Part shown: in pieces, positions 10,616 through 32,588 of the stretch
Position numbering within the stretch: position 1 is the first letter of the stretch
Layout of the letters: each line of letters begins with the position of its first letter
Assembly: GCA_016787005.1 (NCBI GenBank)
Contig: JAEUTS010000122.1
Coordinates: forward strand, 1-34,760
Length of the DNA stretch: 34,760 nt
Source: Bacteroidia bacterium
GTDB taxonomy: Bacteria > Bacteroidota > Bacteroidia > JABDFU01
Direction: 5' to 3'
Translations under genes and position numbers: made by a program
The notes under the pieces: model-generated
Databases searched by the model: none
Told to the model about the DNA's origin: nothing
Seen by the model: the letters and a program-made list of their open reading frames with translations, nothing else

Positions 10616-13600
10616 TTAAAGACGTGTTCCTATCAACAGTATATCATCGACCTGCTCAAACCCCTCTTTCCATTGATCAATCGCTTTGGTCATGTATTCA
10701 CCTTGTTCTTTCATATTCAGGTGCTGCGTATCAAGCAACATTTTCTTGAGGGCACTGTATTTCAGCTTTTTCCCATTCACACCTCCGAACTGGTCGGCAT
10801 AACCATCGGAAAAAATATAGATAGTGTCTCCTTTTTCCAGTTGTATACTGTGGTTTGTAAACTTATGCTGATCACCGGACTTAAGGTTGCCAATAGGAAA
10901 TTTACTCGCTTTTATTTCATTCAAAACACCATTACGTATCCAGTACAAAGGATTGAATGCCCCTGAATACTGCAGCTCGTTTGTTTTACGATCGAACATA
11001 CAAAGCGCAATATCCATGCCATCTTTTACCTGATCTTCGGCGTGTGATTGACGCAACGTATCACTTACACTTTTATTTAACGCGTCCAGAACAAGCGCGG
11101 GTTGAGTGATCCCCTGTTCACCTACTATTTGCTCAAGGTGGTTATGGCCAATAATCGACATGAATGCACCGGGAACTCCATGTCCTGTACAATCAACTGC
11201 GGCGAACAACACTTTATCACCCTTATCATGCAGCCAGTAAAAATCGCCGCTCACAATATCTTTAGGCTTAAACAGGATAAATGTTTTCGGCAAATATTTT
11301 TCCACAAATTCATCGGGCGGCAATATGGCATCCTGTATACGTTTGGCATAGCGTATACTGGCCATTATATCTTTATTCTTTTCATCCAGCTGTTTATTTT
11401 TCTCTACTACCTCCGCGGTTCTTTCACGAACCTTCTCCTCAAGTACACGTTTCTCCACCACTAATTTACGCTCCCTCCATTTTACATACGTAAAGAACAA
11501 TAGCACTCCGACAACCACATATGCGAGATATGCCCACCAGGTGAAGTACCAGGGAGGCCTTATGCGGAATGAAAATGATACAGGTTCTTTGTTCCATACA
11601 CCCAGGTTATTGGAGGCTTTGACTTTGAAAGTGTAATTACCGGGAGACAGATTTGAATAGATAACCGAGGTTTGATTAGTTGCAGGCCGCCAGTTTTCTT
11701 CTTCTCCTTCAAGCATTACCATGAATTTTACCGCATCCGGATTGGAAATACATATACCTGAATAGCTGAACATCAGCGTATTTTGATCATAACTCAACGA
11801 ATAATTGTTTTGAAGGGGAATGGAACGTGAGTAATTGTATTTGATATCGGTGATATTAATAAGCGCTTCAAGCGTGTTCAACTGATCGTACGTTGAGTTA
11901 TATTTTATTAACCCATTAACAGTACCAAACCATATGTTTCCTTTTTTGTCGACATGAACAGCATTTGGTTTGGTCTCAATGGCAGTAAACCCTTCAAATT
12001 TACCATAGGAAATAAAACTTTTCGAATTTTGAACAAAACGATTGAGACCTTTATTCGTTCCGATCCAAATATCTCCTTTGTTGTCTTTAACAAGCAGGTT
12101 AATATAGTCAGATACAAGTCCATCCTGCGTTGTATAATGTTTGAATGCAGTACCATTGTATACAAATACCCCGCCGCCGGATGTACCGACCCATAAATTA
12201 CCGGCTTTGTCTTCTGTTAATGCGGTTGGTGAGGTGTTTGTTAATCCTTCCTCTTTAGCATATAATTTAAATTCCTTTCCATTGTATTTATATAATCCTC
12301 TTCCTACAACACTGATCCATATATTATTCTCCGAATCGCAATACAGCGCGTTTATTTCTTTCGCGTCGAAATTCTTTGTGCCTACAAAGTCTCTTACACT
12401 GGTTGAGGCGGGATCGAATACAACTAAAGCATTACCTGTAGCGATCCATATATTATCCTTTGCATCAACGCACAATGCGCCGATAAAAGGATTACTTATA
12501 AAATCATTAACGACAGTAACTGAATTAAACTCATTTGTTTTCGGGTTATACTTCAATAATTTATCCTGGTAGGTTCCGAGCCATACATCTCCTTTACTGT
12601 CACGGACTGCTGCGCGAAACGCCACCTTCGCGTTTCCTGTTATCTTTTCGTGATTATTAAACGTCCCGTTGACAGGATCTAATACTGACACACCGTTGCC
12701 TGTGGCAATAAAAATATTTCCATTTTCCACTTCTTCAACCGCCCATACCTTATCATTAATCAATCCCTGGGAAACATTGTAAGTGATAAAGCGTTCACCT
12801 TTAAAAATGAATAAACCACTGCCTTGTGTCCCAACCAGAATATTCCCCTCGCGGTCAATACTCAGTGCGTAAATTTTTAAGGCGGGCAAACCGTTACTTG
12901 CGTGATAGTTTGTTAGTTTTCCTTCAGCGGATAGTTTAACAAGTCCATCACCCCATGTAGCCGCCCAGGTATTGCCATTCTTATCAAAAACAATATCACG
13001 TATCCATACGGGAACAGGAAATGATTTTGTTGATCTTTTGGAAGGATCATACTTTACAAGTGTGGGTTGACCTAAAGTGGAGCCATACCAGAGGTTACCT
13101 TTTTCATCCTCTTTGATAGCGGACACATAAGCCAGTGACTGCCCGTTTATGCGAAGGAATTCGAATTTGTCGGAACCTGGTGACAAATACTTTACTCCAA
13201 CATCTGTAAGAAAACAGATGTTTCCGTTTTTCGATTCAAACATACTGAAGACATAACTGCTAAGACCATCGCCGGAACGATAGTATTTCAGATTCTCCTC
13301 AGCAGTAAGTGCATCGTTTGTTTTATTGATCTGTACAACACCAAACATGGCAACGGATACCCATATTTTGCCGGCCTTATCTTCATAAATAGAATATATC
13401 TTTTTATCCCTTATAGTATCAAGTGATAATTTTTCAAACTTATTATCGATATAACGGGTTATGTTACCGGAACTGTGCCCGAGCCAAAGCTCACCGTTAG
13501 ATGTAAGTAACATAGCGCTGATATTATTGTCGGCTAAACCATCTTCGGTTGTGTAATTGTAAAAGGTCTTTCCATCGAATCGCGACAGTCCGCCTTCAGT

Positions 13601-13765
13601 CCCGAGCCATATATTACCCTTCTTATCCTGTACAATAGCAACTACATTGGATTGAATAAGGCCGTCAGTAACGGAATAATTGTCGAATGAATAAAGTTGT
13701 GAGAATAACTGACCCGAAAGAAAGCAAAGGATAATTAAAAAGAAGTTATCTTTTTTACGATGCAT
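10616..13765 (-). CDS. Beta-propeller/Y_Y_Y sensor with SpoIIE-type PP2C phosphatase
   Basis: A 1049-residue transmembrane signalling protein. After a signal peptide (to about residue 22) come some fourteen propeller blades with the Reg_prop consensus (GNIWLGT..GL.r.d), forming two periplasmic propellers, then a Y_Y_Y domain (roughly 660-735), one membrane helix (743-763), a charged coiled coil (763-798) and a cytoplasmic SpoIIE/PP2C domain (from about 799). Metal-binding aspartates are visible: D841 (SGDFYW), D858 (VDCTGHG), D987 (FSDGYAD) and D1040/D1041 (VDDILL), so it looks active. Such domains dephosphorylate Ser/Thr of STAS anti-anti-sigma factors, but no such partner is in the window. 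It starts 14 bp after the caspase-like gene. The external ligand is unknown. Confidence 0.9.
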   Translation of the reverse strand: MHRKKDNFFLIILCFLSGQLFSQLYSFDNYSVTDGLIQSNVVAIVQDKKGNIWLGTEGGLSRFDGKTFYNYTTEDGLADNNISAMLLTSNGELWLGHSSGNITRYIDNKFEKLSLDTIRDKKIYSIYEDKAGKIWVSVAMFGVVQINKTNDALTAEENLKYYRSGDGLSSYVFSMFESKNGNICFLTDVGVKYLSPGSDKFEFLRINGQSLAYVSAIKEDEKGNLWYGSTLGQPTLVKYDPSKRSTKSFPVPVWIRDIVFDKNGNTWAATWGDGLVKLSAEGKLTNYHASNGLPALKIYALSIDREGNILVGTQGSGLFIFKGERFITYNVSQGLINDKVWAVEEVENGNIFIATGNGVSVLDPVNGTFNNHEKITGNAKVAFRAAVRDSKGDVWLGTYQDKLLKYNPKTNEFNSVTVVNDFISNPFIGALCVDAKDNIWIATGNALVVFDPASTSVRDFVGTKNFDAKEINALYCDSENNIWISVVGRGLYKYNGKEFKLYAKEEGLTNTSPTALTEDKAGNLWVGTSGGGVFVYNGTAFKHYTTQDGLVSDYINLLVKDNKGDIWIGTNKGLNRFVQNSKSFISYGKFEGFTAIETKPNAVHVDKKGNIWFGTVNGLIKYNSTYDQLNTLEALINITDIKYNYSRSIPLQNNYSLSYDQNTLMFSYSGICISNPDAVKFMVMLEGEEENWRPATNQTSVIYSNLSPGNYTFKVKASNNLGVWNKEPVSFSFRIRPPWYFTWWAYLAYVVVGVLLFFTYVKWRERKLVVEKRVLEEKVRERTAEVVEKNKQLDEKNKDIMASIRYAKRIQDAILPPDEFVEKYLPKTFILFKPKDIVSGDFYWLHDKGDKVLFAAVDCTGHGVPGAFMSIIGHNHLEQIVGEQGITQPALVLDALNKSVSDTLRQSHAEDQVKDGMDIALCMFDRKTNELQYSGAFNPLYWIRNGVLNEIKASKFPIGNLKSGDQHKFTNHSIQLEKGDTIYIFSDGYADQFGGVNGKKLKYSALKKMLLDTQHLNMKEQGEYMTKAIDQWKEGFEQVDDILLIGTRL

Positions 13766-13779
13766 GAGTCATTGATACA

Positions 13780-16119
13780 TTATTTTTTCATGAAAAAGAA
13801 AGTGCCATCTTCATCTTCGAGATCCTTGATCTTACGAAGTTTAGGGGCCTGGTTAGCTGTTTTCTGAACAGCTGCAGCTACCTTTTCAGAGATCTTGTCA
13901 ATTGAAATGCAGCCATCCGGATTATTGTTCAGTGAGGCAGCGAATGTTTTGGTGAACTGGGAATTGTCTGCGGCCAATTCGAACCCTGCGGATGAAAGCA
14001 CCTGCGAGGATTTGAGCTTCGTTGATTCCCAATCATCGCAACGTCTTTCCTTCGGTGTCGCGCGCATAGCAAGCATAAAAGACGGACCTGATTCACAGGC
14101 ATCGGTCACAACAAGCAGGTGAGCCAATTTATCATAACCCTGGAGTGATCCCTTTAAATTATTTATGCTGAAGTAGGTAAACTCATCATCCACTTTAGCA
14201 TCCACGGGTATCCAGTAGCCTGTCTGGTTTACGAATTTACCATGACCCGCGTACCAGATCACAACTGATGTTACGTTATTCAGCCTTAGCTGATCACGCA
14301 ATTCGATAGAGAAGAATTTCTCAAGGCCATCTTTCGTAAGGTCTTTTTTATGAATTATTTTATTCACCTTATAATTTGCAAGCGCTGATTTCATCATTGT
14401 CACATCCTTACCGGGCCCTTCAAGTATAGGAAAGTTCTTGTAATTGGTATTTTCAACAAATACCACCCAGGTAATGCCCATAGGATTATCCTTAGCTATA
14501 AGCGCTCCTTCCCTGTTAAGTTTGTACTTTACATTGGTTTCGTTGCCATTGATATCTCTCACCCTGATATTGATATCATTTTTATTGGCAATATTCGCTT
14601 TTATGGAAAAAGTGGGATTCAAAGATTCGAGGGCGTAGCTGGCCGAAACACCTTCAACAATAATTGATTCGATCAAACTCTCATCCTTTACTTTGCCTTC
14701 AATGTAAAGCTCCGGGTTGGTATTGTCCATAAATATTTCATTGTCGGATGAAGCCATCGGTGACACTAATTCAACCAAAGGTTTATTTATCTCGGTGCGA
14801 TCGATAGTATAGATGATCTTTTTAGTGTTATCGTATATATCGGTTGCCGATATTGAAAACTCAGTTCCGGTGCCTATCTGAATTCCACCGCTGAAATCGG
14901 GATTTATCGTGTCCTTGGTAAAATTAGCGGGAACATTATTAATGCTTATCGCTTTTATCTTACTTGCATCCTTAACGGTTCCCCTGACTACGATCTCTGT
15001 TTTATCTCCGGGAAGTTTAACCACATTCCTTTCATTTGCTTTAGGTGTAAGCAGTTCTATTTCGGGTTTATAGCTTTCACGGTTCAGTTCGAACAGCTTT
15101 TCTATCGCGGCCTTCATCATCTCTTTGGCTTTCTCATTATTCGGAGCCAGGGTCATTATCTTTTCATAATCAACCGCTGCCGATTTAAAATTGGTAAGCT
15201 GCTCATAGTTCCAGGCGCGTTTGTAATAGGCCTGCAAAAGATCTTTCCCGTTCATCCCGATCACTTTCGAGAAGTCATATATCGCATTCTGGTATTGACC
15301 CAGTTTTTCGTAATACTCCCCTCTTTTCATGAATAACATTTCATTATTCTGGTCACTGACAATTACCTTTGAAATATCATTCACTGCTGTTCCGAAATCG
15401 TTTTTGCTCGCGAAGATGCAGCTACGGGCATAAAAAATATCTTTATTGGTAGGATCCTTGGATATCGCCGCTTCAGCAATACTTAATGCTTCGTCATACT
15501 TTTTCAGTTTATCCTGTACAAGAATAAGTCCGACATAAGCCGGGATGAACTTTGAGTCATAATACTTGGAATTTTTATACTCTTTCTCAGCTTCAATATA
15601 GTTTTTCAAACTGTCCAGCATAACTGCATGGTAGTAATAAGCTGGTGCTGTTCTTTTATTATCTATCCAAAGCTGTGATGCTTCAAGTCCGTCCTTGAAA
15701 TTTTTGAGTTTCAAAAGAACTTTGAGGAAAACCTCAATTGCTTCATTGTATTCTTTGTCCTTAACAATGGCGTCCCTCAACATGGCGTCAGCTTCAGTAT
15801 ACTTACCGAGGTCATAATACAGTCGCCCTGCGTTGAAATAATTTTCTTTATCCTTAGGTGCAAAAACTGTAGCCCGCCTGTAGTCATCCGCCGCATCCGA
15901 ATTTCTCCCTGTTTTTTCATAACAATATGCACGCGCCTGGTAGGCCTTTACATACTTAGGGTCAAGCTCAATGGCTTTGGTATAACTGTTAATTGCATCC
16001 TCGTAGGAAAGACTTTCAAGAAACTTACTGCCACTGCTGTAAAATTTTTTCGCACTCTGAGCTTTTACAAAAAAAGTGCATGTGAGAAGGAAAAATAACA
16101 GGAGTGCTCTCTTAAACAT
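13780..16119 (-). CDS. Exported TPR protein with Ig-like repeats and C-terminal caspase-like peptidase
   Basis: The start at 16119 (779 residues) is chosen because it begins a clean signal peptide (MFKRALLLFFLLTCTFFVKAQ); an in-frame ATG at 16200 would put 27 residues before it. Residues ~25-350 are about nine TPRs. Two Ig-like beta repeats follow (~355-530, each with IxSIxVxxV(S/P)A-type strands). The C-terminal ~240 residues are a peptidase C14/caspase-like domain with the dyad H626 (WYAGHG) and C675 (DACESG), plus the ENTNYKNFPILEGPGKDV strand typical of p20 units. Both catalytic residues are present, so it may be active. It heads the transcript that includes the SpoIIE phosphatase. Substrate and trigger unknown. 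Confidence 0.87.
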   Translation of the reverse strand: MFKRALLLFFLLTCTFFVKAQSAKKFYSSGSKFLESLSYEDAINSYTKAIELDPKYVKAYQARAYCYEKTGRNSDAADDYRRATVFAPKDKENYFNAGRLYYDLGKYTEADAMLRDAIVKDKEYNEAIEVFLKVLLKLKNFKDGLEASQLWIDNKRTAPAYYYHAVMLDSLKNYIEAEKEYKNSKYYDSKFIPAYVGLILVQDKLKKYDEALSIAEAAISKDPTNKDIFYARSCIFASKNDFGTAVNDISKVIVSDQNNEMLFMKRGEYYEKLGQYQNAIYDFSKVIGMNGKDLLQAYYKRAWNYEQLTNFKSAAVDYEKIMTLAPNNEKAKEMMKAAIEKLFELNRESYKPEIELLTPKANERNVVKLPGDKTEIVVRGTVKDASKIKAISINNVPANFTKDTINPDFSGGIQIGTGTEFSISATDIYDNTKKIIYTIDRTEINKPLVELVSPMASSDNEIFMDNTNPELYIEGKVKDESLIESIIVEGVSASYALESLNPTFSIKANIANKNDINIRVRDINGNETNVKYKLNREGALIAKDNPMGITWVVFVENTNYKNFPILEGPGKDVTMMKSALANYKVNKIIHKKDLTKDGLEKFFSIELRDQLRLNNVTSVVIWYAGHGKFVNQTGYWIPVDAKVDDEFTYFSINNLKGSLQGYDKLAHLLVVTDACESGPSFMLAMRATPKERRCDDWESTKLKSSQVLSSAGFELAADNSQFTKTFAASLNNNPDGCISIDKISEKVAAAVQKTANQAPKLRKIKDLEDEDGTFFFMKK

Positions 16120-16514
16120 AATAATATACTTAATAAATTGATGCTTAATAAATTTAAACTCGCCCCACTTTCCTATGCCCCTGATATAAATGGTTTTCAT
16201 ATGGCTTAAACGGCAAACTCCATAATAACCAATATATTATACAGACAAAAATATAAAAATACTGTATTATCGGAGGCTTAATTACTTATTATTTATCATC
16301 ATTTTGGGGCCTATGTATGACTGCAATCTCCTTATTTTCAGGTTTTAGCTTTTGTTTAAGGATAATTTGCGATTTTTATACCTAAGGAACCTGTTATAAG
16401 AATTTTGATGCTGGCATATCTGGTTCTTCGCTAACCTGCCTCCTGCTCAGTAGGTCTGGCGGATAAAAAACCCTTAAATTGGCTAAGAACCGATATAACA
16501 CGACAATAGCGGAA
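16120..16514. other. Divergent intergenic region (395 bp)
   Basis: Separates the caspase-operon start from the second TMTC-like gene. The left half is AT-rich. On the minus strand CAAAAATA (16246-16253) reads as a perfect -7 element TATTTTTG for the caspase operon, but no -33 element is seen at 19-21 bases. Around 16446-16458 CCTGCTCAGTAGG is nearly self-complementary. I find no open reading frame, tRNA or terminator here, and no convincing plus-strand promoter. Confidence 0.5.
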
Positions 16515-19168: not shown

Positions 19169-19573
19169 ATGATGCATGCCGGTAAGCAGATAATCCGACT
19201 TTCTTGTTTTTTATTGACATTATTTGTCAGCACAGCCTGTTCAATAAGGGCTCAAACGGTTACAGCAAATGATGCCAGTATTTGTAACGGCTCATGCGCT
19301 ACAATTACCGCTGTAGCTTCTGGTGGAACTCTTCCATACACATTTTCATGGAGCAATGGGAACAATACTTCCTCCATCACAGATTGTCCTTCGGCAAATA
19401 CAGTTTATACAGTAACATTAACCGATGCTTTAGGTAATAAGGCATCCACAACAGCCAAAGTAGTGCTTCTTCCGGGTGTATTAGCTTCAATTTCAGCTAC
19501 TAATCTGAAATGCAATGGCGACAATATTGGTACAGCTACTGTAGGCACGGCAAATACAGGAACTCCTCCATAG
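19169..19573 (+). CDS. SprB-repeat adhesin, 5' fragment ending at in-frame amber
   Basis: Encodes the signal peptide (MMHAGKQIIRLSCFLLTLF... to about SIRAQ) and the first SprB-type repeat (YTFSWSNG). The frame stops at TAG 19571-19573 and continues without shift in the next 811 codons. The residue lost is predicted to be Tyr: sibling repeats read P-Y-T/N-Y-x-W-S-N-G, while here the frame reads TPP-stop-MYLWNNG, so TAT or TAC to TAG would explain it. Alone this 134-residue product is an exported stub without a sorting domain. It could also be a sequencing error or a readthrough site. Confidence 0.75.
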   Translation: MMHAGKQIIRLSCFLLTLFVSTACSIRAQTVTANDASICNGSCATITAVASGGTLPYTFSWSNGNNTSSITDCPSANTVYTVTLTDALGNKASTTAKVVLLPGVLASISATNLKCNGDNIGTATVGTANTGTPP

Positions 19574-22009
19574 ATGTATCTTTGGAATAACGGACATTCA
19601 AGTCCTTCAATTTCGGGCCTTTCTGCGGGTACGTATAAGGTTACTGTTACCGACAGCAAAGGCTGTACTTCCATAGCCTCAACTACTATCACTCAACCAC
19701 CGGCAATTTCAGGAAGCATATCATCATCTCCGGCAACCTGTGGTTCAAATAATGGAAGTGCTGTGGCCACAGCTTCCGGTGGAACGGGGACTCTTATGTA
19801 TACCTGGAGCAATGGTACAGTCGGAAACATAGCATCCGCTCTTTCGGCCGGATTTTATGCTGTTTCCGTTAAAGATGCTAATTCCTGCGTAAGAATATTT
19901 CCATTGCTTCTAACAAATACCGGCAGCGGTGTTGTGACTGCATTAACAAAATCCAATGTAAGTTGCAATGGCGGAAATAATGGCGGTGCGGTGGCGAGTA
20001 TTTCCGGAGGATCGGGCCCGTTTACATATAGTTGGAGTAACGGTTCTGTCGGGCAGACCGCAAACGGGCTGGCTGCCGGATTATATTTTGTAATTGTGCG
20101 TGATGCCAGCTTGTGTTTGTCTGGTTCAATTGTCAATATTACTCAACCTTTTCCTTTGAATATCACTTTTGGAGTCAGCCAACCCACCTGTGGTTCGGCA
20201 AACGGATATGCATCAGCCAATGTAACCGGCGGAACAGGACCATACAATTACAGCTGGAGTAACGGTGCCACCACCAAAACTATATCAGCGCTTCCTGCAG
20301 GTAATTATACCGTATCCGTTGCAGATACAAATAATTGTAAAACTTCAGACGTAGTAACTCTATTAGGCATAACAGCTCCGATTGTCACTGTATCTGTCAA
20401 TCAAATAACATGTAATGGTGCCGGTAACGGTTCAATAACATTGGCCGTTTCAAGCAGCGCAGGCATGCCCTATACATACAGCTGGAGCAATGGCGTAACC
20501 GGAACAACGGGTATTACAGGATTAAGCGCTGGCACTTACTTTGCAATAGTAACTAATTCGGTAGGGTGTGTCACAAGCAGATCAGTGGTCATCACAGAAC
20601 CTCCGGCAATTATATTATCAGCCAATTCATTAAACGCTCCATGTGTTTCTATAATTGGCAGCGCTCTTGCAACAACAATAGGAGGAACCGGTGCCTTTAC
20701 TTATAGCTGGAGCAGCGGTGCAACCGGACCAACTGCTTCAGGACTTACAACCGGAACGTACTCTTTAACGGCAATGGACGCCAATGGTTGTTCAACAACA
20801 ACAACAGTTGCGATCATTAATTCGGCCGGAACTGCAAGCACTACTGTTTTATCCAATGTAAGTTGTCATGGAGGCAGCAATGGGAGTGCCAGTGCCGGTA
20901 TGTCTGTGGGAAGTACAATCACTGCCTATATTTGGAGCAATGGCCAAACCGGTTCATTAATATCAGGAATTACTGCGGGAAATTATACAGTTACAATTAC
21001 CGACAGCAATGGTTGTCTGAATACATCAGTAGCTATAATCACAGAACCTCCTGCAATTATATTATCAGCCAATTCATTAAACACTCCATGTGTTACGATA
21101 AACGGAAGCGCTCTTGCAACAGCAACCGGCGGAACCGGCGCCTTCACCTATAGCTGGAGCAGCGGAGCCACAGGGCAAACCGTTTCCGGGCTTACACCCG
21201 GCAATTATACGGTAACGGTTATAGATGCGAACGCTTGTATCAAAAGCACAACAGTAAATATCGTTTATTCAGGTGCAAGCGCGGCTGTAGCTGCCGTTTT
21301 GTCCAATGTAAATTGTCATGGTGATAGCAACGGAAGCGCAACGGTAACTCTGTCCGGAACAAATACCGCTATTTCTTATTCCTGGAGTAACGGAGCCGCC
21401 ACGCAGTCGATTTCAGGTGTAGCCGGGGGAAGTTATACTGTTACAGTCACTGATAATAACAGTTGCAATTTTACCTCTATCGTTGTGATAGCTGAGCCGC
21501 CTCAACTTACTGCTGCCATATCAGCGGTAAACGCCACCTCAGCAGCAAGCTGCGACGGATCCATCACTTCTGTTGTATCCGGAGGAGTTCCGGTTTATTC
21601 TTATCAATGGTCGAATAGTTCAACAACCGCTTTTATTTCCGGGCTTTGCACCGGACTTTATGCTTATACAATTACAGATAGTCATGGCTGCGAGGTCAAG
21701 AACAGTGTATTGATATCTGACACATTAAATACCCGCTGTAACCTGCATTTTTACAATATGATCACACCTAATAACGATGGCAATAATGATTACTGGCACA
21801 TCGACTGCATTACAGCATATACGTTAAATAATGTAGCCATCTTTAACCGCTGGGGCAATAAAATCTGGCAAACGGATGGCTATAATAATACCGATCGTGC
21901 CTGGAAAGGCACAGATCAATCAGGAACAGCAATGCCCGAAGGTACTTACTTTTATGTTGTTAAGGTAAATTCAATCGAATATTCAGGCAAAGTAGAACTT
22001 CTGAAATGA
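19574..22009 (+). CDS. SprB-repeat adhesin, main part with T9SS type B sorting domain
   Basis: Continuation of the 19169 frame: about ten more SprB repeats of ~70-75 residues, each with a (Y/F)xYSWSNG strand, a G(L/I)xAGxYxVTVTD strand and a conserved Cys, then a ~90-residue C-terminal domain (CNLHFYNMITPNNDGNNDYW..., VAIFNRWGNKIW, EGTYFYVVKV) of the gliding-associated/type B sorting class. Such proteins cross the outer membrane through T9SS and stay on the surface, as SprB does in gliding. The ATG directly after the amber could reinitiate, but the product would lack a signal peptide. The stop overlaps the PorP/SprF start by ATGA. Confidence 0.87.
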   Translation: MYLWNNGHSSPSISGLSAGTYKVTVTDSKGCTSIASTTITQPPAISGSISSSPATCGSNNGSAVATASGGTGTLMYTWSNGTVGNIASALSAGFYAVSVKDANSCVRIFPLLLTNTGSGVVTALTKSNVSCNGGNNGGAVASISGGSGPFTYSWSNGSVGQTANGLAAGLYFVIVRDASLCLSGSIVNITQPFPLNITFGVSQPTCGSANGYASANVTGGTGPYNYSWSNGATTKTISALPAGNYTVSVADTNNCKTSDVVTLLGITAPIVTVSVNQITCNGAGNGSITLAVSSSAGMPYTYSWSNGVTGTTGITGLSAGTYFAIVTNSVGCVTSRSVVITEPPAIILSANSLNAPCVSIIGSALATTIGGTGAFTYSWSSGATGPTASGLTTGTYSLTAMDANGCSTTTTVAIINSAGTASTTVLSNVSCHGGSNGSASAGMSVGSTITAYIWSNGQTGSLISGITAGNYTVTITDSNGCLNTSVAIITEPPAIILSANSLNTPCVTINGSALATATGGTGAFTYSWSSGATGQTVSGLTPGNYTVTVIDANACIKSTTVNIVYSGASAAVAAVLSNVNCHGDSNGSATVTLSGTNTAISYSWSNGAATQSISGVAGGSYTVTVTDNNSCNFTSIVVIAEPPQLTAAISAVNATSAASCDGSITSVVSGGVPVYSYQWSNSSTTAFISGLCTGLYAYTITDSHGCEVKNSVLISDTLNTRCNLHFYNMITPNNDGNNDYWHIDCITAYTLNNVAIFNRWGNKIWQTDGYNNTDRAWKGTDQSGTAMPEGTYFYVVKVNSIEYSGKVELLK
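20591..21487 (+). repeat. Tandem two-repeat unit in SprB-like gene
   Basis: A block of about 447 bp (two SprB repeats, 149 codons) occurs twice in tandem: 20591-21037 and 21038-21487. The first ~57 bases of each copy differ at only two positions, and both encode ITEPPAIILSANSLN; the rest is diverged but alignable (GTGAFTYSWSSGATG in both). This points to a recent duplication or gene conversion. Confidence 0.75.
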
Positions 22010-22917
22010 TAAGAGCCCGTAATTTTTTTTTATACTTTATCGTTTTATTTTTTGCCGGCACCTTGTCGGCACAACAATATCCGCAATACAGCGGGTATAT
22101 GTTCAACCGCTTCGCCATTAATCCTGCCTATGCCGGTAATTACAATACATTCCAGGCTACTGCCATGATTCGTAATCAATGGGTAGGTATACAAAACGCG
22201 CCCAATACCTCTTCCCTCTCCTTTCATGGTACGCTAAAGAATGAAAAGGTCGCGCTTGGCTTTAATGTATTCAGCGACGCGATCGGGTTTTCAAAAACAA
22301 ATGCGGTTTTTGGCACCTATGCTTATCGCCTTATCATGCCCTCAGGTACATTGTCGTTTGGCTTACGCATGGGTGTGGCGAATGTTTCTTATAATTGGGA
22401 AGATGTCGATGTAAAGGATAAAGTGGACGCTTTGTTAGGAGCAGGTGTCACAAATGTTTCCCGCGTGCTTTCCGATGCCGGTGTATATTATCACAACAAT
22501 ACATTTTACGCGGGGCTCAGCGCTACAAACCTTATCGGGCAGGGAATGCCTACACTGAATTATTCCCAGCTGCTTCTCCCCCACCTCTTTCTAACAGCCG
22601 GTAAGTCATTCAGCATATCCGATAATTTAATTATCAATCCTTCTGTTTTAATTAAACTGGTTCAGGGTGCCATGGGTATTGATATAAACTGTAATTTCCT
22701 TATCAGCAATAAACTTTGGTTAGGCTTATCGGGCAGGATTGGATATGGTTACGTATTGCTAATGCAATACAATATCACAGAAAAATTCAAAATAGGTTAC
22801 GCGTATGATCTCGGACGAAATGATATAGGTATCATTGGCGGATCATCACACGAAATTATGTTGGGATATAATTTCAGTTTGTTTAGCAGGAAAATGCAGT
22901 CATTCAGATTTCTCTGA
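22006..22917 (+). CDS. PorP/SprF family T9SS outer membrane protein
   Basis: A 303-residue outer-membrane beta-barrel of the PorP/SprF family, which partners with type B sorting-domain substrates (SprF is needed for SprB display in Flavobacterium johnsoniae). A signal peptide ending at SAQ is followed by the family signature QYPQYSGYMFNRFAINPAYAG, NQWVGIQNAP and many amphipathic strands, ending in a barrel-type Phe-rich terminus. The start overlaps the adhesin stop by four bases (ATGA), indicating translational coupling and a dedicated adhesin/partner pair. As for other such genes next to type B substrates, it is probably specific for this adhesin rather than the core T9SS PorP. Confidence 0.9.
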   Translation: MIRARNFFLYFIVLFFAGTLSAQQYPQYSGYMFNRFAINPAYAGNYNTFQATAMIRNQWVGIQNAPNTSSLSFHGTLKNEKVALGFNVFSDAIGFSKTNAVFGTYAYRLIMPSGTLSFGLRMGVANVSYNWEDVDVKDKVDALLGAGVTNVSRVLSDAGVYYHNNTFYAGLSATNLIGQGMPTLNYSQLLLPHLFLTAGKSFSISDNLIINPSVLIKLVQGAMGIDINCNFLISNKLWLGLSGRIGYGYVLLMQYNITEKFKIGYAYDLGRNDIGIIGGSSHEIMLGYNFSLFSRKMQSFRFL

Positions 22918-22922
22918 TACGT

Positions 22923-25601
22923 ATGGTAAAAAGAACCGGTATATTATTTATTCTCCTTGTGATGACCTGTTCCGTGAAAGTGAACGCGCAACTCGCGAAG
23001 GCCGATAAATATTTTTCGAATTACGAATATGCCAACGCCATACCCTGCTATTTAAAAGTTGTTAAAAAAGGTACTAACCTGCCCGCTTTACAAAATCTGG
23101 CTCACTGTTACAGGCTCACGAAAAACTACACCCAGGCGGAGATCTACTATGCACAGGCTGTACAGCAAATGGGTGTTGACCCCGTTAACTTTTTCTATTA
23201 CGGGCTGGTGTTAAAGAACAATAAAAAATACGAAGAAGCCGAAAAACAATTTAACCGTTACATGGAGCTGGTCCCTTCCGATCAAAAGGCCGATCTCTCG
23301 GTAAAATCAATGCAGGAACTTAAAGTGATGATGGCACAGCCTTCCCATTATGAGATAACCAATGTAAAAGCCCTCAACTCGCTGCGATCGGAATTCGCGC
23401 CTGCATTTTATAAGAACGGCCTGGTTTATACCAGCGACCGTGAGCCCGACCTTGTTAACTTCCAGAACAGCGAATGGAACAAGCATCCGTATTTCAACCT
23501 GTACTTTGCCGAATCGGATCCGAAAGATAAAAACGTATTCAAATCCTCTCAGCGCTTTTCAAAGAAAGTGAATGGTCCTTATCACGATGGTATGGCCACC
23601 TTTAACAGCGATCATACTCAAATGTTCTTTACGCGTATTGAAACACGTTCGGCATCGAACAAAATATTTCAGCCGCATATCTATTCCTCAAAGGCTTCCA
23701 ATGGCAAATGGGATAAAGGAGAGCTTGTTCCCCTCGCCAGCGACAGCGCCTGGGTTTCACATCCAAGCCTGTCGGCCGACGGCCAGCAATTGTATTTCGC
23801 GGCCGATATCGCGGGAGGTTTTGGAGGAAAAGATATTTATGTATCGAAAAAAGAAGGTGACAAATGGGGCACTCCGCAAAATCTCGGACCTAATGTAAAT
23901 ACTGTACTTGATGAGGTGTTCCCCTATATCCGTAAGGACAATGTTTTATTTTTCAGTTCAACCGGCCATACCGGCCTGGGTGGATTTGATATTTTTTCAT
24001 CATCACAGATCAACGGCAAATGGAGCAAGCCCGAGAATCTTGGTACACCACTTAACTCATCCACAGATGATTTCGGTATTTTGTTCGGGGAAGATAACCT
24101 GTCGGGCTATTTTTCATCCGACAGAGCTGATGGCCAGGGTGCGGATGATATTTACAGCTTCATTCAGCTGAAACTTATCTCCATGAAAGGGAAAGTGCTG
24201 CTGAGTAGGGATATTAATCAGCCTGCCAAAGGCATTAAAGTTCTCCTGCTTTCAGAAGACGGTAAAGTGCTGGGGGTAACATCAACGGACAGCCTGGGTT
24301 TCTTTAAGTTCGAAAACCTGAGCCCGGATTTGCAGTACCTGGTTAAAATGGACGAAAGTGACGCGAATTTCAATCCTAACAAAAAATACTACCTGGCTAA
24401 TGAGTTGAATAAAATTTTAAGAGTTACCGTTATTAATGATCACGGCCAGAAATTTGTGTTCGAGAAATTACCGGCCGACCTTGTAGCGTTGAAGCCCGAT
24501 TCGCTGATTGATAATGCCAGCCAGATAGCGGGCACGCTGCTTATAGGTGACAATCCCTCTAAACCATACGCCAATAAAAAAGTAAACCTGTTGAACGAAA
24601 AAGGTGAGGTTGTAAAAACCATTGTTACCAATGGCTTTGGTTCATTTGTTTTTACCGATCTCGACCCCGATGTAACTTATTTTATTGCCGCCGATGAAAG
24701 CGACGGAGGGCTTTCGCCTAACAGCAAGATTATTTTAACCAACTCATCGGCTAAAGAGATCAAGGTAATTAAGTCCGACTCAAAGGGCGGGTTCAGGTTC
24801 ACGCTGCTTAAAGGCGATAACAACGAATTATCATTCCTGCAGGTGGATGACACCAAGCTGCGAATGGATATGAAAGGGAGATTATACGCCGATACACTTT
24901 CGCAGCCCATGGCCAATGCAAAGATCGACCTGGTTAATGAACGGGGCCAGGTGCAGCAAAGCATTACCACCAAACCCAACGGAGGCTTTCTATTTACCGC
25001 ACTGCCTTTTAACGAAAGCTTTTTGTTCCGTATTGATGAAAACGATCCACGGTTAAAGGATCTGAAGAAGCTGATCTTTACAAATGAAGCCGGTGTTGTT
25101 ATAAAAGTAATTCACTTTAAAAAGGATGCCGGGTTTAAATTTCAGTTTTTGGCCGGAGATTACAAAAGTATATCCACCACTTATGTGGATGACCCCTGGT
25201 TAAAAGTATTGCAGTTCAAACAAAACGAAAAGGGCAAGAACGACAGCGTGAATATTGTAGAGAACATTTATTACAACCTGGATGATTACAAAGTGCTGCC
25301 CGAAGCCCGTAAAGTACTTGACAAGGTAGTTGACCTGATGAAGAACAACTCAAAACTATCCGTTGAAATTGGCTCCCATACCGACTCAAGAGCCACTGAT
25401 GAATATAACCTTAATCTCTCACAAAAACGGGCCAAAGCCGCTACCGATTACATCATCCAAAACGGCATTGCCAAAAAGCGCATAACTGGAACAGGCTATG
25501 GCGAAACCCGCCTCATTAATAAATGCGGTAATGGTGTTGATTGCCCCGAAGAAGAACATGCCAAGAATAGAAGGACGGAGTTTAGGGTGTATGTGAAGTG
25601 A
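22923..25601 (+). CDS. PorE-like OmpA-family protein (TPR, PD40, three CRDs, OmpA)
   Basis: An 892-residue periplasmic protein starting 5 bp after the PorP/SprF gene. Signal peptide to about residue 23; TPR region (~25-130); PD40/WD40-like propeller (~150-415) with blades such as SLSADGQQLYFA and GGKDIYVSKK; three carboxypeptidase-regulatory-like beta sandwiches in tandem (~418-745, each with G.vvLlnE.G.v..t.T...G.F.F..L and a DESD/DEND motif); and a C-terminal OmpA domain (~765-892) with IGSHTDSRATDEYNLNLSQKRA, which binds peptidoglycan. This is the order seen in PorE, which links T9SS to peptidoglycan, except that PorE has one CRD. Likely anchors the adhesin/SprF complex to the cell wall. 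Role inferred. Confidence 0.88.
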   Translation: MVKRTGILFILLVMTCSVKVNAQLAKADKYFSNYEYANAIPCYLKVVKKGTNLPALQNLAHCYRLTKNYTQAEIYYAQAVQQMGVDPVNFFYYGLVLKNNKKYEEAEKQFNRYMELVPSDQKADLSVKSMQELKVMMAQPSHYEITNVKALNSLRSEFAPAFYKNGLVYTSDREPDLVNFQNSEWNKHPYFNLYFAESDPKDKNVFKSSQRFSKKVNGPYHDGMATFNSDHTQMFFTRIETRSASNKIFQPHIYSSKASNGKWDKGELVPLASDSAWVSHPSLSADGQQLYFAADIAGGFGGKDIYVSKKEGDKWGTPQNLGPNVNTVLDEVFPYIRKDNVLFFSSTGHTGLGGFDIFSSSQINGKWSKPENLGTPLNSSTDDFGILFGEDNLSGYFSSDRADGQGADDIYSFIQLKLISMKGKVLLSRDINQPAKGIKVLLLSEDGKVLGVTSTDSLGFFKFENLSPDLQYLVKMDESDANFNPNKKYYLANELNKILRVTVINDHGQKFVFEKLPADLVALKPDSLIDNASQIAGTLLIGDNPSKPYANKKVNLLNEKGEVVKTIVTNGFGSFVFTDLDPDVTYFIAADESDGGLSPNSKIILTNSSAKEIKVIKSDSKGGFRFTLLKGDNNELSFLQVDDTKLRMDMKGRLYADTLSQPMANAKIDLVNERGQVQQSITTKPNGGFLFTALPFNESFLFRIDENDPRLKDLKKLIFTNEAGVVIKVIHFKKDAGFKFQFLAGDYKSISTTYVDDPWLKVLQFKQNEKGKNDSVNIVENIYYNLDDYKVLPEARKVLDKVVDLMKNNSKLSVEIGSHTDSRATDEYNLNLSQKRAKAATDYIIQNGIAKKRITGTGYGETRLINKCGNGVDCPEEEHAKNRRTEFRVYVK

Positions 25602-28588: not shown

Positions 28589-28918
28589 ATGTCTAAACAA
28601 GGAATTGAATCATTTGGCGAAACGCTCCGTAAACTACGAGAAGAAACTGAAATGCCTTTAAGAAAGCTTGCTGCACTTCTTGATATTGACCAATCAACAT
28701 TAAGTAAAATTGAGCGAAATGAAAGAAAAGCAAATACTGAAATGATTGATAAACTATCAAGTATTTTCAAAGTAGATAGAAAATCATTACTTATAAGTTT
28801 CATAAGCGACAAAGTCGCATACGAATTATTAGAAGAAGATAACCCAAAGGATATTTTGAAAGTTGCCGAACAAAAAATAACATACTTGAAACAATTCAAA
28901 AAACATACTGATGCTTAA
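28589..28918 (+). CDS. XRE-family helix-turn-helix regulator, probable R-M controller
   Basis: 109 residues from the ATG at 28589; an in-frame ATG at 28535 would lie inside the promoter and is rejected. Residues ~8-65 form a lambda-repressor-type HTH (ETLRKLREETEMPLRKLAALL, DQSTLSKIERNERKANTEMI); the C-terminal part (KVAYELLEEDNPKDILKVAEQ) is helical and probably dimerises. It is the first gene of the R-M transcript and overlaps the methyltransferase start by 8 bp. Size, position and the inverted repeat in front support a controller (C) protein role, likely autorepression. Not proven by sequence. Confidence 0.85.
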   Translation: MSKQGIESFGETLRKLREETEMPLRKLAALLDIDQSTLSKIERNERKANTEMIDKLSSIFKVDRKSLLISFISDKVAYELLEEDNPKDILKVAEQKITYLKQFKKHTDA

Positions 28919-29792
28919 AGGAACAACTATTACTAAATCAGAACAGTTAGGGATTGTTCATGCAAGACCGAAGGTGCTATTTCCAGAGTTGGAAACTCAA
29001 AAGCCGTTTTTAAAATGGGCAGGAGGAAAAACTCAAATGATTTCTGATATATTAAAGTTTACGCCAAATAAATTCAATAAGTATATTGAACCATTTATTG
29101 GCGGAGGTGCTTTATTCTTTAATCTTAACCATCCGAAATCAATTATTTCAGATTTAAATGAAGAATTAGTAATTACATACAAGCAAGTACAAGAAAATGT
29201 TTACGAAGTAATAAATATCCTTGAGAAATATCACAACACTGAAACTTTTTACTATAAAACAAGGAGCCTTGACACACAGAAATTAAGTCACGCAGAGAGG
29301 GCAGCTCGATTAATATATCTTAATAAAACTTGTTTTAATGGGTTATTCAGAGTTAACAAAAAAGGAGAGTTTAACGTACCTTACGGTAAGCGAAATGGTT
29401 CTTTTTTAAATAAAGAAAATCTGTTAAGATCATCTGATTATTTACAAAACACTGAAATATATTTTTCAGATTATAAGGAAATTTTAAAAAAATATGCAAA
29501 GAAAGGTGATTTTGTTTTTCTTGACCCACCTTATCAGCCTGTTGGAAAACACTCTGATTTTAAAAGATATACGAAAGAGTTTTTTTACGAAGAAGATCAG
29601 ATTGAGTTAGCTGAAATTTTTAAAGATCTTACCAATAAAGGGTGTTATGTAATGCTCACAAATTCCGATCACCCATTTATTCTCGATTTATATAAAGATT
29701 TCCATATAGAGATCGTTGAAACAAAGCGATTAATAAGCAGTAATCCAAAAACACGAACAGGAATAGATATCATTGTTTTAGGTGGTCTATAA
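28911..29792 (+). CDS. D12-class DNA adenine methyltransferase (DpnII-like)
   Basis: N6-adenine DNA methyltransferase of the Dam/DpnII type, 293 residues. SAM-site motifs are visible: FLKWAGGKTQM (33-43, motif X), PFIGGGALFF (61-70, motif I), and the catalytic DPPY at 205-208 (FVFLDPPYQPVG). The target-recognition part includes NKTCFNGLFRVNKKGEFNVPYG, common in GATC-specific enzymes. Together with a second methyltransferase and a type IIS nuclease it is expected to protect one strand of an asymmetric site. The stop and the next start are separated by a single base. Confidence 0.92.
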   Translation: MLKGTTITKSEQLGIVHARPKVLFPELETQKPFLKWAGGKTQMISDILKFTPNKFNKYIEPFIGGGALFFNLNHPKSIISDLNEELVITYKQVQENVYEVINILEKYHNTETFYYKTRSLDTQKLSHAERAARLIYLNKTCFNGLFRVNKKGEFNVPYGKRNGSFLNKENLLRSSDYLQNTEIYFSDYKEILKKYAKKGDFVFLDPPYQPVGKHSDFKRYTKEFFYEEDQIELAEIFKDLTNKGCYVMLTNSDHPFILDLYKDFHIEIVETKRLISSNPKTRTGIDIIVLGGL

Positions 29793-29793
29793 T

Positions 29794-30837
29794 ATGCAGT
29801 TAGAAATAGAAAACTTTACAGATCAGTTTCAGTATTTCCCCGGTACACGATATATGGGGAGTAAGAATAAAATTATTTCCAATCTATGGAAGCACATAGG
29901 AAAACTTGAATTTGACAGTTTTTTTGACGCGTTTGCAGGCAGTAATGTAGTTAGCTACTTTATGAAATGTCAAGGCAAAAAGGTAATAACAAATGATTTT
30001 ATGTCATTTAGTTACATAACTTCAAAAGCTATTATTGAAAACTCAACGGAACAAATCGATTCAAAGGACATAAAGTTTTTATTAAAGAAAAATAAAAATA
30101 ACGGCTTTATTCAAAGTACATTTCAGGACATATTCTATTCAGCAGAAGAAAACGAATTTCTCGACAGAGTTAGGCGCAACATTTCTCTTCTTGATAACGA
30201 ATACAAAATTGCGTTGGCACTTGCATCATTAGTTAGAGCATGCGTTAAAAAAAGATCAAGAGGCATATTTACTTTTGTTGGGGAACGCTACAATGATGGC
30301 AGAGCCGACATGAGAAAAACAATCGAGGAACATTTTATTGAAAGTATTCAGATTTTTAATAAAGCTGTTTTTTATAATGATCAGCAAAATAAATCAAAGA
30401 ACAAACGATCTGAAAATATTACAGTAAAAGCGGACTTGGTATATCTCGACCCCCCATATTTCACACCAAAATCAGATAATGATTATGTGCGGAGATACCA
30501 TTTTGTTGAAGGTCTTGTAAAAAATTGGGAAGGAATTGAAATTCAAGAACATTCAATAGTTAAAAAATTTGAAAGCTATAAATCACCGTTTGCTAAAAAG
30601 GAAACAGCCTATTCTGCATTTGATGATTTATTCAAAAAACATAAGGATTCTATAATAGCAATATCATATTCCTCAAATAGCCTACCAACGAAAAAGGAAT
30701 TAACCGAAATGCTTTGTAAATACAAGTCAAAAGTTGAAGTTTATGAAATAAATCACACATATTCAATGGGTAATCAAAGCCATAAAATCGGCAATAAAAA
30801 TAACAGAGTAAAAGAATATTTATTTATAGGTAAATAG
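29794..30837 (+). CDS. D12-class DNA adenine methyltransferase, second
   Basis: 347 residues from ATG 29794; an in-frame GTG at 29782 would overlap the previous gene. Motif X-like TRYMGSKNKI (18-27), motif I FFDAFAGSNVVSYF (43-56) and motif IV DPPY at 219-222 (LVYLDPPYFTP) mark a D12-class N6-adenine enzyme. It is not close to the upstream DpnII-like methyltransferase: it belongs to the GSK-type subgroup. A separate enzyme for the other strand is usual for type IIS systems. The C-terminus has NHTYSMGNQSHKIG. The endonuclease starts 2 bp after it. Confidence 0.9.
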   Translation: MQLEIENFTDQFQYFPGTRYMGSKNKIISNLWKHIGKLEFDSFFDAFAGSNVVSYFMKCQGKKVITNDFMSFSYITSKAIIENSTEQIDSKDIKFLLKKNKNNGFIQSTFQDIFYSAEENEFLDRVRRNISLLDNEYKIALALASLVRACVKKRSRGIFTFVGERYNDGRADMRKTIEEHFIESIQIFNKAVFYNDQQNKSKNKRSENITVKADLVYLDPPYFTPKSDNDYVRRYHFVEGLVKNWEGIEIQEHSIVKKFESYKSPFAKKETAYSAFDDLFKKHKDSIIAISYSSNSLPTKKELTEMLCKYKSKVEVYEINHTYSMGNQSHKIGNKNNRVKEYLFIGK

Positions 30838-30839
30838 CA

Positions 30840-32588
30840 ATGCCAAAAGTTTGGAACATAGGAAATACAACTGTTCGGAATCCGAAACGAATTGAGAACG
30901 CCCTTAAAGTATTTGTTGAAGAAAGGTTTTCAGGTAATGCAAAAGGGAAACAAGCCGAAACACGAATACACGCCAAGTTAAAGGAAAAAGGCGTTTTAGA
31001 ATTTGATGGCAAACCTTCTGACTGGAACGGTCGAAAATGGAGGGCTGCATTTTATCAATTAGGCTTTATCAGTTACGAAAAATATAAAATTGGTCGAGAT
31101 ACTTTTTCTCCAACTGATTTTTTCAAGCAAATAAATGAAAACAACATAACACTTCCTTACCAATTAACAGAAGCGGGTCGTAAGCTTATTTTAGCTACAA
31201 CTGTTCCTCAAATAGAAGATATATACCTACGACAATTTGCTTGTTATGAAATACCAAATTCACTCGAGCGAAGATTTGCTGATGGCAATCTCAAGCCATT
31301 CATCTTGTTTGTTGAAGTATTAAAGCTATTGGATGATAAACATAAGGGTGGGTTGACTAAATTCGAAACGGGTTTGTTTATTCAAAAATTCAGAAACCAT
31401 ACTTCATCGCTTGCAAAAACAATTCTTAAGGAAATTCTTGAATACAGAGCAAAAATTTCAAAATGTAAAACTGCTAAGGAAGCAAAGAAGGTTAATGCGG
31501 TTTATTTAAAAGACCTTGCTAAATTCTCCGGCATCAACCCTTCAAGTGTCGTAGGGGATTACGCAGATACAACCTTTAGATATTTTAGTCTTTCGGGTTT
31601 ATTTACAAGAATTGGTGATTCAATTGTAATTCGTCCAAATAAAAAAGAGTTTGTAAATCAGTTATTAAAAACTGAACCTGTTTTTCTATTCAAAACAAAA
31701 CCATTGGAATATTTCAGAATATTTTATACCAACACACAGGAAATACCAACAGATAATATTAAGATCGCGTTAAATGAAATTTCATCTTTAAGAAGTAATA
31801 TTCGCGATACTGCAAATCCTCTGTTTAAAAAAGTAAGCACGTTAACAGAGAAATCTAATCCCGAAACAGTGCAGAACGTTCGATATGAACTTATTGAGTA
31901 TAATAATTGGGAGCGAGAAGAAGAATACGCTTATGAGCAACAGGAAAGTAAATCTGTAACTGAAATAATAAAGTATTTAAAGGTACTTAACAATGAAAAG
32001 GTCGAAGGAAATGTAATAATTGATGACAAACCTGCCTACTTAGAATGGGCCGTATGGAGATCTTTTCTTTCAATTGATGACATTACTTGCCGTATTCATA
32101 AAACAAGACGGTTTCCAGTCGACCAAGACTTTTTGCCAAGAAATACGGCACCTGGGGGTGGATCTGATTTAATTTTTGAATTTGAAACATATATTCTTGT
32201 TGTTGAAGTTACTTTAACTACTTCTCATAGACAAATGGCTGTTGAAAGTGAACCAGTAAAAAGACATACGGCACAATACAAGCATCTATATCCAACTAAA
32301 GATGTTTATTGCTTGTTCATTGCTCCAAATATTGATAATAACGTGGTTGAAACTTTCAGAATTGGAACATGGTATAATGCAGATATAGAGGAAACAGTAA
32401 ACGTTATACCTATGAGTATTTCCGATTTTATTATTTCTATAGAAACACTACAAAAAAAGAAATTTCACAACTCCGATTTTAAAATTCTTCTTGACAATTG
32501 CTTAACCTATAGAAATACAAGTGCACCTAAATGGAAAGCAACTATAAAATCTGAAGTAGAATCATGGTGTCAAAAAATTAATTTATAA
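30840..32588 (+). CDS. AlwI-family type IIS restriction endonuclease
   Basis: A 582-residue nuclease of the AlwI/BstNBI/PleI group, which recognise short asymmetric sites and cut a few bases outside them. The N-terminal ~270 residues are DNA-recognition (NGRKWRAAFYQLGFI). The C-terminal catalytic domain has D443 (GGGSDLIFEF), E456 (VVEVTLT) and E469 (AVESE), with E402 (LEWAVWRSF) upstream. The 13-residue steps D-E-E match those I recall for nicking enzyme BspD6I (D456, E469, E482), so the site looks intact. A dimerisation defect, as in the natural nickases, cannot be seen. Recognition sequence not readable; GGATC is guessed from the DpnII-like partner. Ends 2 bp before the cinA stop. Confidence 0.88.
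   Translation: MPKVWNIGNTTVRNPKRIENALKVFVEERFSGNAKGKQAETRIHAKLKEKGVLEFDGKPSDWNGRKWRAAFYQLGFISYEKYKIGRDTFSPTDFFKQINENNITLPYQLTEAGRKLILATTVPQIEDIYLRQFACYEIPNSLERRFADGNLKPFILFVEVLKLLDDKHKGGLTKFETGLFIQKFRNHTSSLAKTILKEILEYRAKISKCKTAKEAKKVNAVYLKDLAKFSGINPSSVVGDYADTTFRYFSLSGLFTRIGDSIVIRPNKKEFVNQLLKTEPVFLFKTKPLEYFRIFYTNTQEIPTDNIKIALNEISSLRSNIRDTANPLFKKVSTLTEKSNPETVQNVRYELIEYNNWEREEEYAYEQQESKSVTEIIKYLKVLNNEKVEGNVIIDDKPAYLEWAVWRSFLSIDDITCRIHKTRRFPVDQDFLPRNTAPGGGSDLIFEFETYILVVEVTLTTSHRQMAVESEPVKRHTAQYKHLYPTKDVYCLFIAPNIDNNVVETFRIGTWYNADIEETVNVIPMSISDFIISIETLQKKKFHNSDFKILLDNCLTYRNTSAPKWKATIKSEVESWCQKINL

Follow-up and report, generated by a model that had tools for sequence, protein, structure and literature searches.

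A single in-frame amber codon in a SprB-repeat adhesin gene of a draft Bacteroidota genome, probably a recent null allele

We suggest, with a probability of about 0.6, that an in-frame TAG codon found in the DNA analysed here (a stretch of 34,760 nucleotides, called the window) represents a recent null allele of a single SprB-type adhesin among many. The window is one contig (C199) of a draft genome, apparently that of an uncultured Bacteroidota bacterium, which comprises 436 contigs and 3.16 Mb and is 85.5% complete with 3.5% contamination. The original prediction had set recent loss, readthrough and assembly error side by side. Recent loss fits best, given a whole orthologue, no second lesion in the 811 codons downstream and purifying selection averaged over both lineages; readthrough gained no support. 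By itself the case is minor, since it concerns a single null allele, or a single wrong base, among dozens of SprB/CHU_C genes. It does call for caution, in that occasional single lesions in the SprB arrays of draft genomes may cause annotation to split genes and so skew adhesin counts.

Translation of positions 19169-22009 (plus strand) gives one frame of 947 codons, including the terminal TGA at 22007-22009, and its only internal stop is the TAG at 19571-19573, which is codon 135. This bears out the predicted single amber codon in a 947-codon adhesin frame. The flanking open reading frames are 134 and 811 aa long, and the second starts at ATG 19574, directly abutting the TAG. In the 5' piece (19169-19570), a signal-peptide-like N terminus, judged by eye, is followed by one SprB repeat and the first part of the next, with one stretch matching SprB (Pfam PF13573, E 9.5e-08). 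The 3' piece (19574-22009) contains the rest of repeat 2, nine more SprB repeats, the sorting domain and the terminal TGA, and seven of its SprB matches are individually above threshold. At the C terminus, CHU_C (PF13585) scores 84.3 bits against a threshold of 27, and TIGR04131, the NCBIfam model of the type IX secretion system (T9SS) type B sorting domain, scores 55.1 against a cut-off of 35. A signal-peptide-like start before the TAG, and the ten repeats and type B sorting domain after it, are in place as expected. With the TAG between them, the signal peptide and the sorting domain do not stand on one polypeptide. We therefore place the gene among the SprB-repeat adhesins on grounds of descent, and do not count it as intact.

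Counted by the pattern W-[SN]-x-[GS], the adhesin has 11 repeat cores, one upstream of the TAG and ten downstream, with the interrupted repeat supplying the first of the ten. The TAG lies in the second repeat, four residues N-terminal to its conserved Trp. It had been proposed that this position corresponds to a Tyr codon in the sibling repeats; this holds for four of ten, while the others have Phe (three), Leu, Thr and Ile (one each), and the orthologue has Phe. The site thus appears to be a mostly aromatic position, and Tyr is a plausible residue before the lesion, which can be named only by inference because a single orthologue was found and the siblings are mixed. The array also contains a two-repeat unit of about 450 nt, of which the window has two copies and the orthologue one; within it, the segments 20591-20823 and 21038-21270 (span 20591-21270, plus strand) are 79% identical over 233 nt and lie 447 nt apart. 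The extra copy accounts for a gap of about 150 residues in the alignment, and we read it as repeat gain or loss within the genus.

The orthologue comes from a comparison with five other genomes of the same genus; a search at the level of the order added none beyond the genus's six. The adhesin locus is present in one of these five (G004, 97% complete). In the other four (56-72% complete) it was not found, the DNA matches being confined to the AlgH-type gene that precedes the adhesin or to short repeat stretches. In G004 the gene is one uninterrupted frame of 796 aa with its own signal-peptide-like start, and the codons aligned to the window's TAG and the following ATG encode Phe and Ile. The two proteins align from end to end, and differ in a few signal-peptide residues, one single-residue gap and the two-repeat unit found only in the window. 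Both loci have the gene order TPR gene, adhesin, sprF and OmpA-domain gene. Since the frame aligns along its whole length with an uninterrupted orthologue in the same gene order, it is not a product of chance. A scan of wider genome contigs, from which the window's own or very near genomes are possibly absent, gave eight loci, the best 37% identical over a long match, with no orthologue by identity.

Compared with G004, dN/dS (NG86/YN00) is 0.41/0.47 over the 131 aligned codons before the TAG, 0.20/0.25 over the 661 aligned codons that follow and 0.04/0.06 across the sorting domain; dS is about 0.8-1.1 for both the pre-TAG and post-TAG parts. These values average both lineages and are blind to a relaxation limited to the recent moment; averaged in this way, they show purifying selection on the part downstream of the TAG. 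No second stop or frameshift occurs in the 811 codons downstream. With transitions weighted twofold, a random base change in these codons would make a stop in about 3.4% of cases, which gives 0.83 stops for each 1% of divergence. The lack of further stops limits unconstrained divergence to about 3.6% or less, which is small beside a dS near 0.9, so the lesion, if real, is young relative to the split from G004. It looks as if the adhesin frame was under selection until very recently. The locus has the single disabling lesion, the whole relative and the absence of further decay that mark a recent pseudogene. An assembly error would be expected to look equally recent, and these comparisons cannot separate the two.

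The genes downstream are intact in their arrangement. A PorP/SprF family gene (22006-22917, plus strand; PF11751 E 1.6e-63; TIGR03519 219.9 bits against a cut-off of 90.55) starts within the adhesin stop, in an ATGA overlap at 22006-22009, and its protein is 94% identical to the G004 counterpart. It is followed, after five bases, by a TPR/PD40/OmpA-domain gene (22923-25601, plus strand), which is related to PorE and falls below the cut-off of the PorE model. The overlap and the close spacing, as originally described, are confirmed, and both recur in the orthologous locus. The adhesin, its PorP/SprF partner and the OmpA-domain gene apparently share an operon. Between 18301 and 23100, a Bacteroidota-type promoter pattern has no full match, and its two partial matches are the repeat's own Tyr-x-Trp codons.

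On this basis, we hypothesize that a SprB-repeat adhesin, a type IX secretion substrate encoded in an operon with a PorP/SprF partner and an OmpA-domain protein, has suffered one recent nonsense change in its second repeat. Translation would end after 134 codons, giving a product that keeps the signal peptide and loses the C-terminal sorting domain. A product restarted at ATG 19574 (811 aa) would keep the sorting domain and lose the signal peptide. Since each product would lack one of the two signals, neither could be displayed through Sec and T9SS, which most likely makes this a null allele of the adhesin. That the base is real and the product without function is our inference. If translation restarted at the adjacent ATG, ribosomes could stay on the mRNA as far as sprF, which would soften polar effects and may keep sprF and the OmpA-domain gene translated. 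This ATG is probably there by chance, because it is absent in G004 and a Met stands at the same place in another repeat of the window. Against the null reading, the ATG beside the lesion might be usable and give some function. Dozens of other SprB/CHU_C proteins are encoded in the source genome, which has at least 150 SprB-repeat matches and 43 CHU_C matches (40 flagged as exceeding the family cut-off). Because of these, the loss of one adhesin is probably tolerable.

The rival that we consider possible, though clearly less probable than not, is that the stop is a consensus error, arising either from a wrong base call or from the collapse of mixed strains or paralogous repeats in the draft. 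The assembly is incomplete, fragmented and slightly contaminated, the gene is built of repeats that are abundant in the genome, among which short reads could be misplaced, and broken SprB arrays occur elsewhere too, some of them at homopolymers. However, such lesions are infrequent. We surveyed 59 sequences of the source genome, the window and 58 stretches picked for SprB/CHU_C matches out of a larger number of such contigs; 53 had matches, in 71 SprB-bearing segments with at least two repeats each (76,888 aa in all). Within the arrays of these segments no in-frame stop other than the window's TAG occurs, and one further array (C263) has an apparent frameshift near a T run. No second near-identical copy of the adhesin locus was seen in the source genome. 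In 44 segments (83,208 aa) from 37 sequences of other genomes, no in-frame stop lies inside an array, and two apparent frameshifts were noted by eye, in G011:C71 at a G run and in G004:C33. A TAA inside a match in G004:C11 was set aside, since the frame itself ends there and the match runs past it. A further SprB array, G011:C64 (locus L094), picked because it had been flagged beforehand, has one in-frame TAG (2778-2780) at a repeat's conserved Trp, with the frame open to either side of it. Single-lesion SprB arrays are, as far as these surveys reach, uncommon yet not confined to the window locus.

Explanations in which the TAG is compatible with a functional gene fare worse. It is quite improbable that a suppressor tRNA or leaky termination lets the TAG be read through at some rate and yields low-level full-length adhesin. 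The remaining frame is indeed whole and conserved, TAG is rare as a terminator (one of the 23 window frames listed), and the G011 array offers a second one-amber case in another family. Yet the source genome has an RF1 gene with an open frame, and TAG directly ends other genes: the D12 methyltransferase gene at 29782-30837 of the window and a 3,224-aa SprB/CHU_C gene on contig C245, which stops six codons past its CHU_C match. RF1 and these direct terminators rule out genome-wide recoding of TAG, and we take TAG to be an ordinary terminator in this genome. A suppressor tRNA was also looked for, and none with a CUA anticodon is among the 20 tRNA genes of the incomplete genome, where the tRNA set is plainly incomplete and the result is weak evidence (tRNA models mark 21 loci, one of them with no ARAGORN gene). 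The one orthologue has a Phe codon at the site, so the stop is not conserved, and the G011 amber sits at a different repeat residue, so there is no conserved signal. These points together tell against the readthrough option raised at the outset.

Reversible switching, in which recombination between SprB repeats (through gene conversion or changes in repeat number) removes or imports the stop, seems to us scarcely credible. The differing number of two-repeat units in the window and G004, and the 79% identical copies 447 nt apart, show that repeats recombine over time. However, divergence between the repeats is too great for frequent exchange: the longest pair is the 79% one, and the copies that share the stretch just 3' of the TAG are 60-71% identical. 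In the sequence looked at, neither an invertible element nor a donor copy carrying the TAG was seen. A broader idea is that the amber codons of the window and G011 are expression switches, by which rare readthrough or repeat recombination would give a minority of cells or molecules the full-length adhesin while re-initiation keeps sprF and the OmpA-domain gene translated; we regard it as very improbable. Equally hard to credit is a design of two genes, one for a short secreted protein with a single repeat and the other for an 811-aa protein made by re-initiation. The abutting ATG would suit it, but the break falls inside a repeat and the 811-aa product would have no signal peptide despite its T9SS sorting domain. 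We reject this design on the orthologue, which is a single gene with Phe and Ile codons at the TAG and ATG positions. We thus favor the recent null allele.

Some other features were noted in passing. In the window, a restriction-modification operon (28911-32588) encodes two D12-class adenine methyltransferases and an AlwI-type endonuclease. On the minus strand, a TPR protein with a caspase-type (Peptidase_C14) domain is encoded at 13780-16200, and a large two-component-propeller/SpoIIE protein (10616-13765) adjoins it. Among SprB genes, the long gene of locus L137 (8984-12289) has DUF7948, SBBP, PKD and SprB domains. This gene and the long genes of L132, L134, L129 (two genes), L127 and L155 end 13 residues after the last SprB match, and all seven of the endings examined have the form W.DGY...Y.N.LCPG......D.NGC......P. 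The L137 gene, the one of these that was scanned, has no CHU_C or Por tail. The shared ending is perhaps a SprB-like terminal sorting domain.

The window locus is of the kind represented by the sprB operon of Flavobacterium johnsoniae, a gliding-associated SprB-type adhesin with a SprF partner and type IX secretion. The two are alike in the SprB repeats, the type B sorting domain and the adjoining PorP/SprF and OmpA-domain genes. They differ in that the window gene is interrupted by an amber codon; its product is also much shorter than the large F. johnsoniae protein. The G011:C64 array, like that of the window, has one in-frame TAG with an open frame before and after it, but it belongs to another family and a much longer protein, and its stop falls on the conserved Trp of a later repeat, whereas that of the window lies four residues before the Trp of the second. 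In the titles and the beginnings of abstracts on SprB stops, SprB pseudogenes and gliding, and amber readthrough in Bacteroidetes, no amber-interrupted SprB gene is described. One paper describes a premature stop in the gliding gene gldB, with a known phenotype, in one isolate of F. psychrophilum (PMC8400371). Both cases are single nonsense changes in genes tied to gliding or T9SS surface biology; gldB, however, encodes part of the machinery and was studied in a named isolate, whereas the window gene is one of many adhesins.
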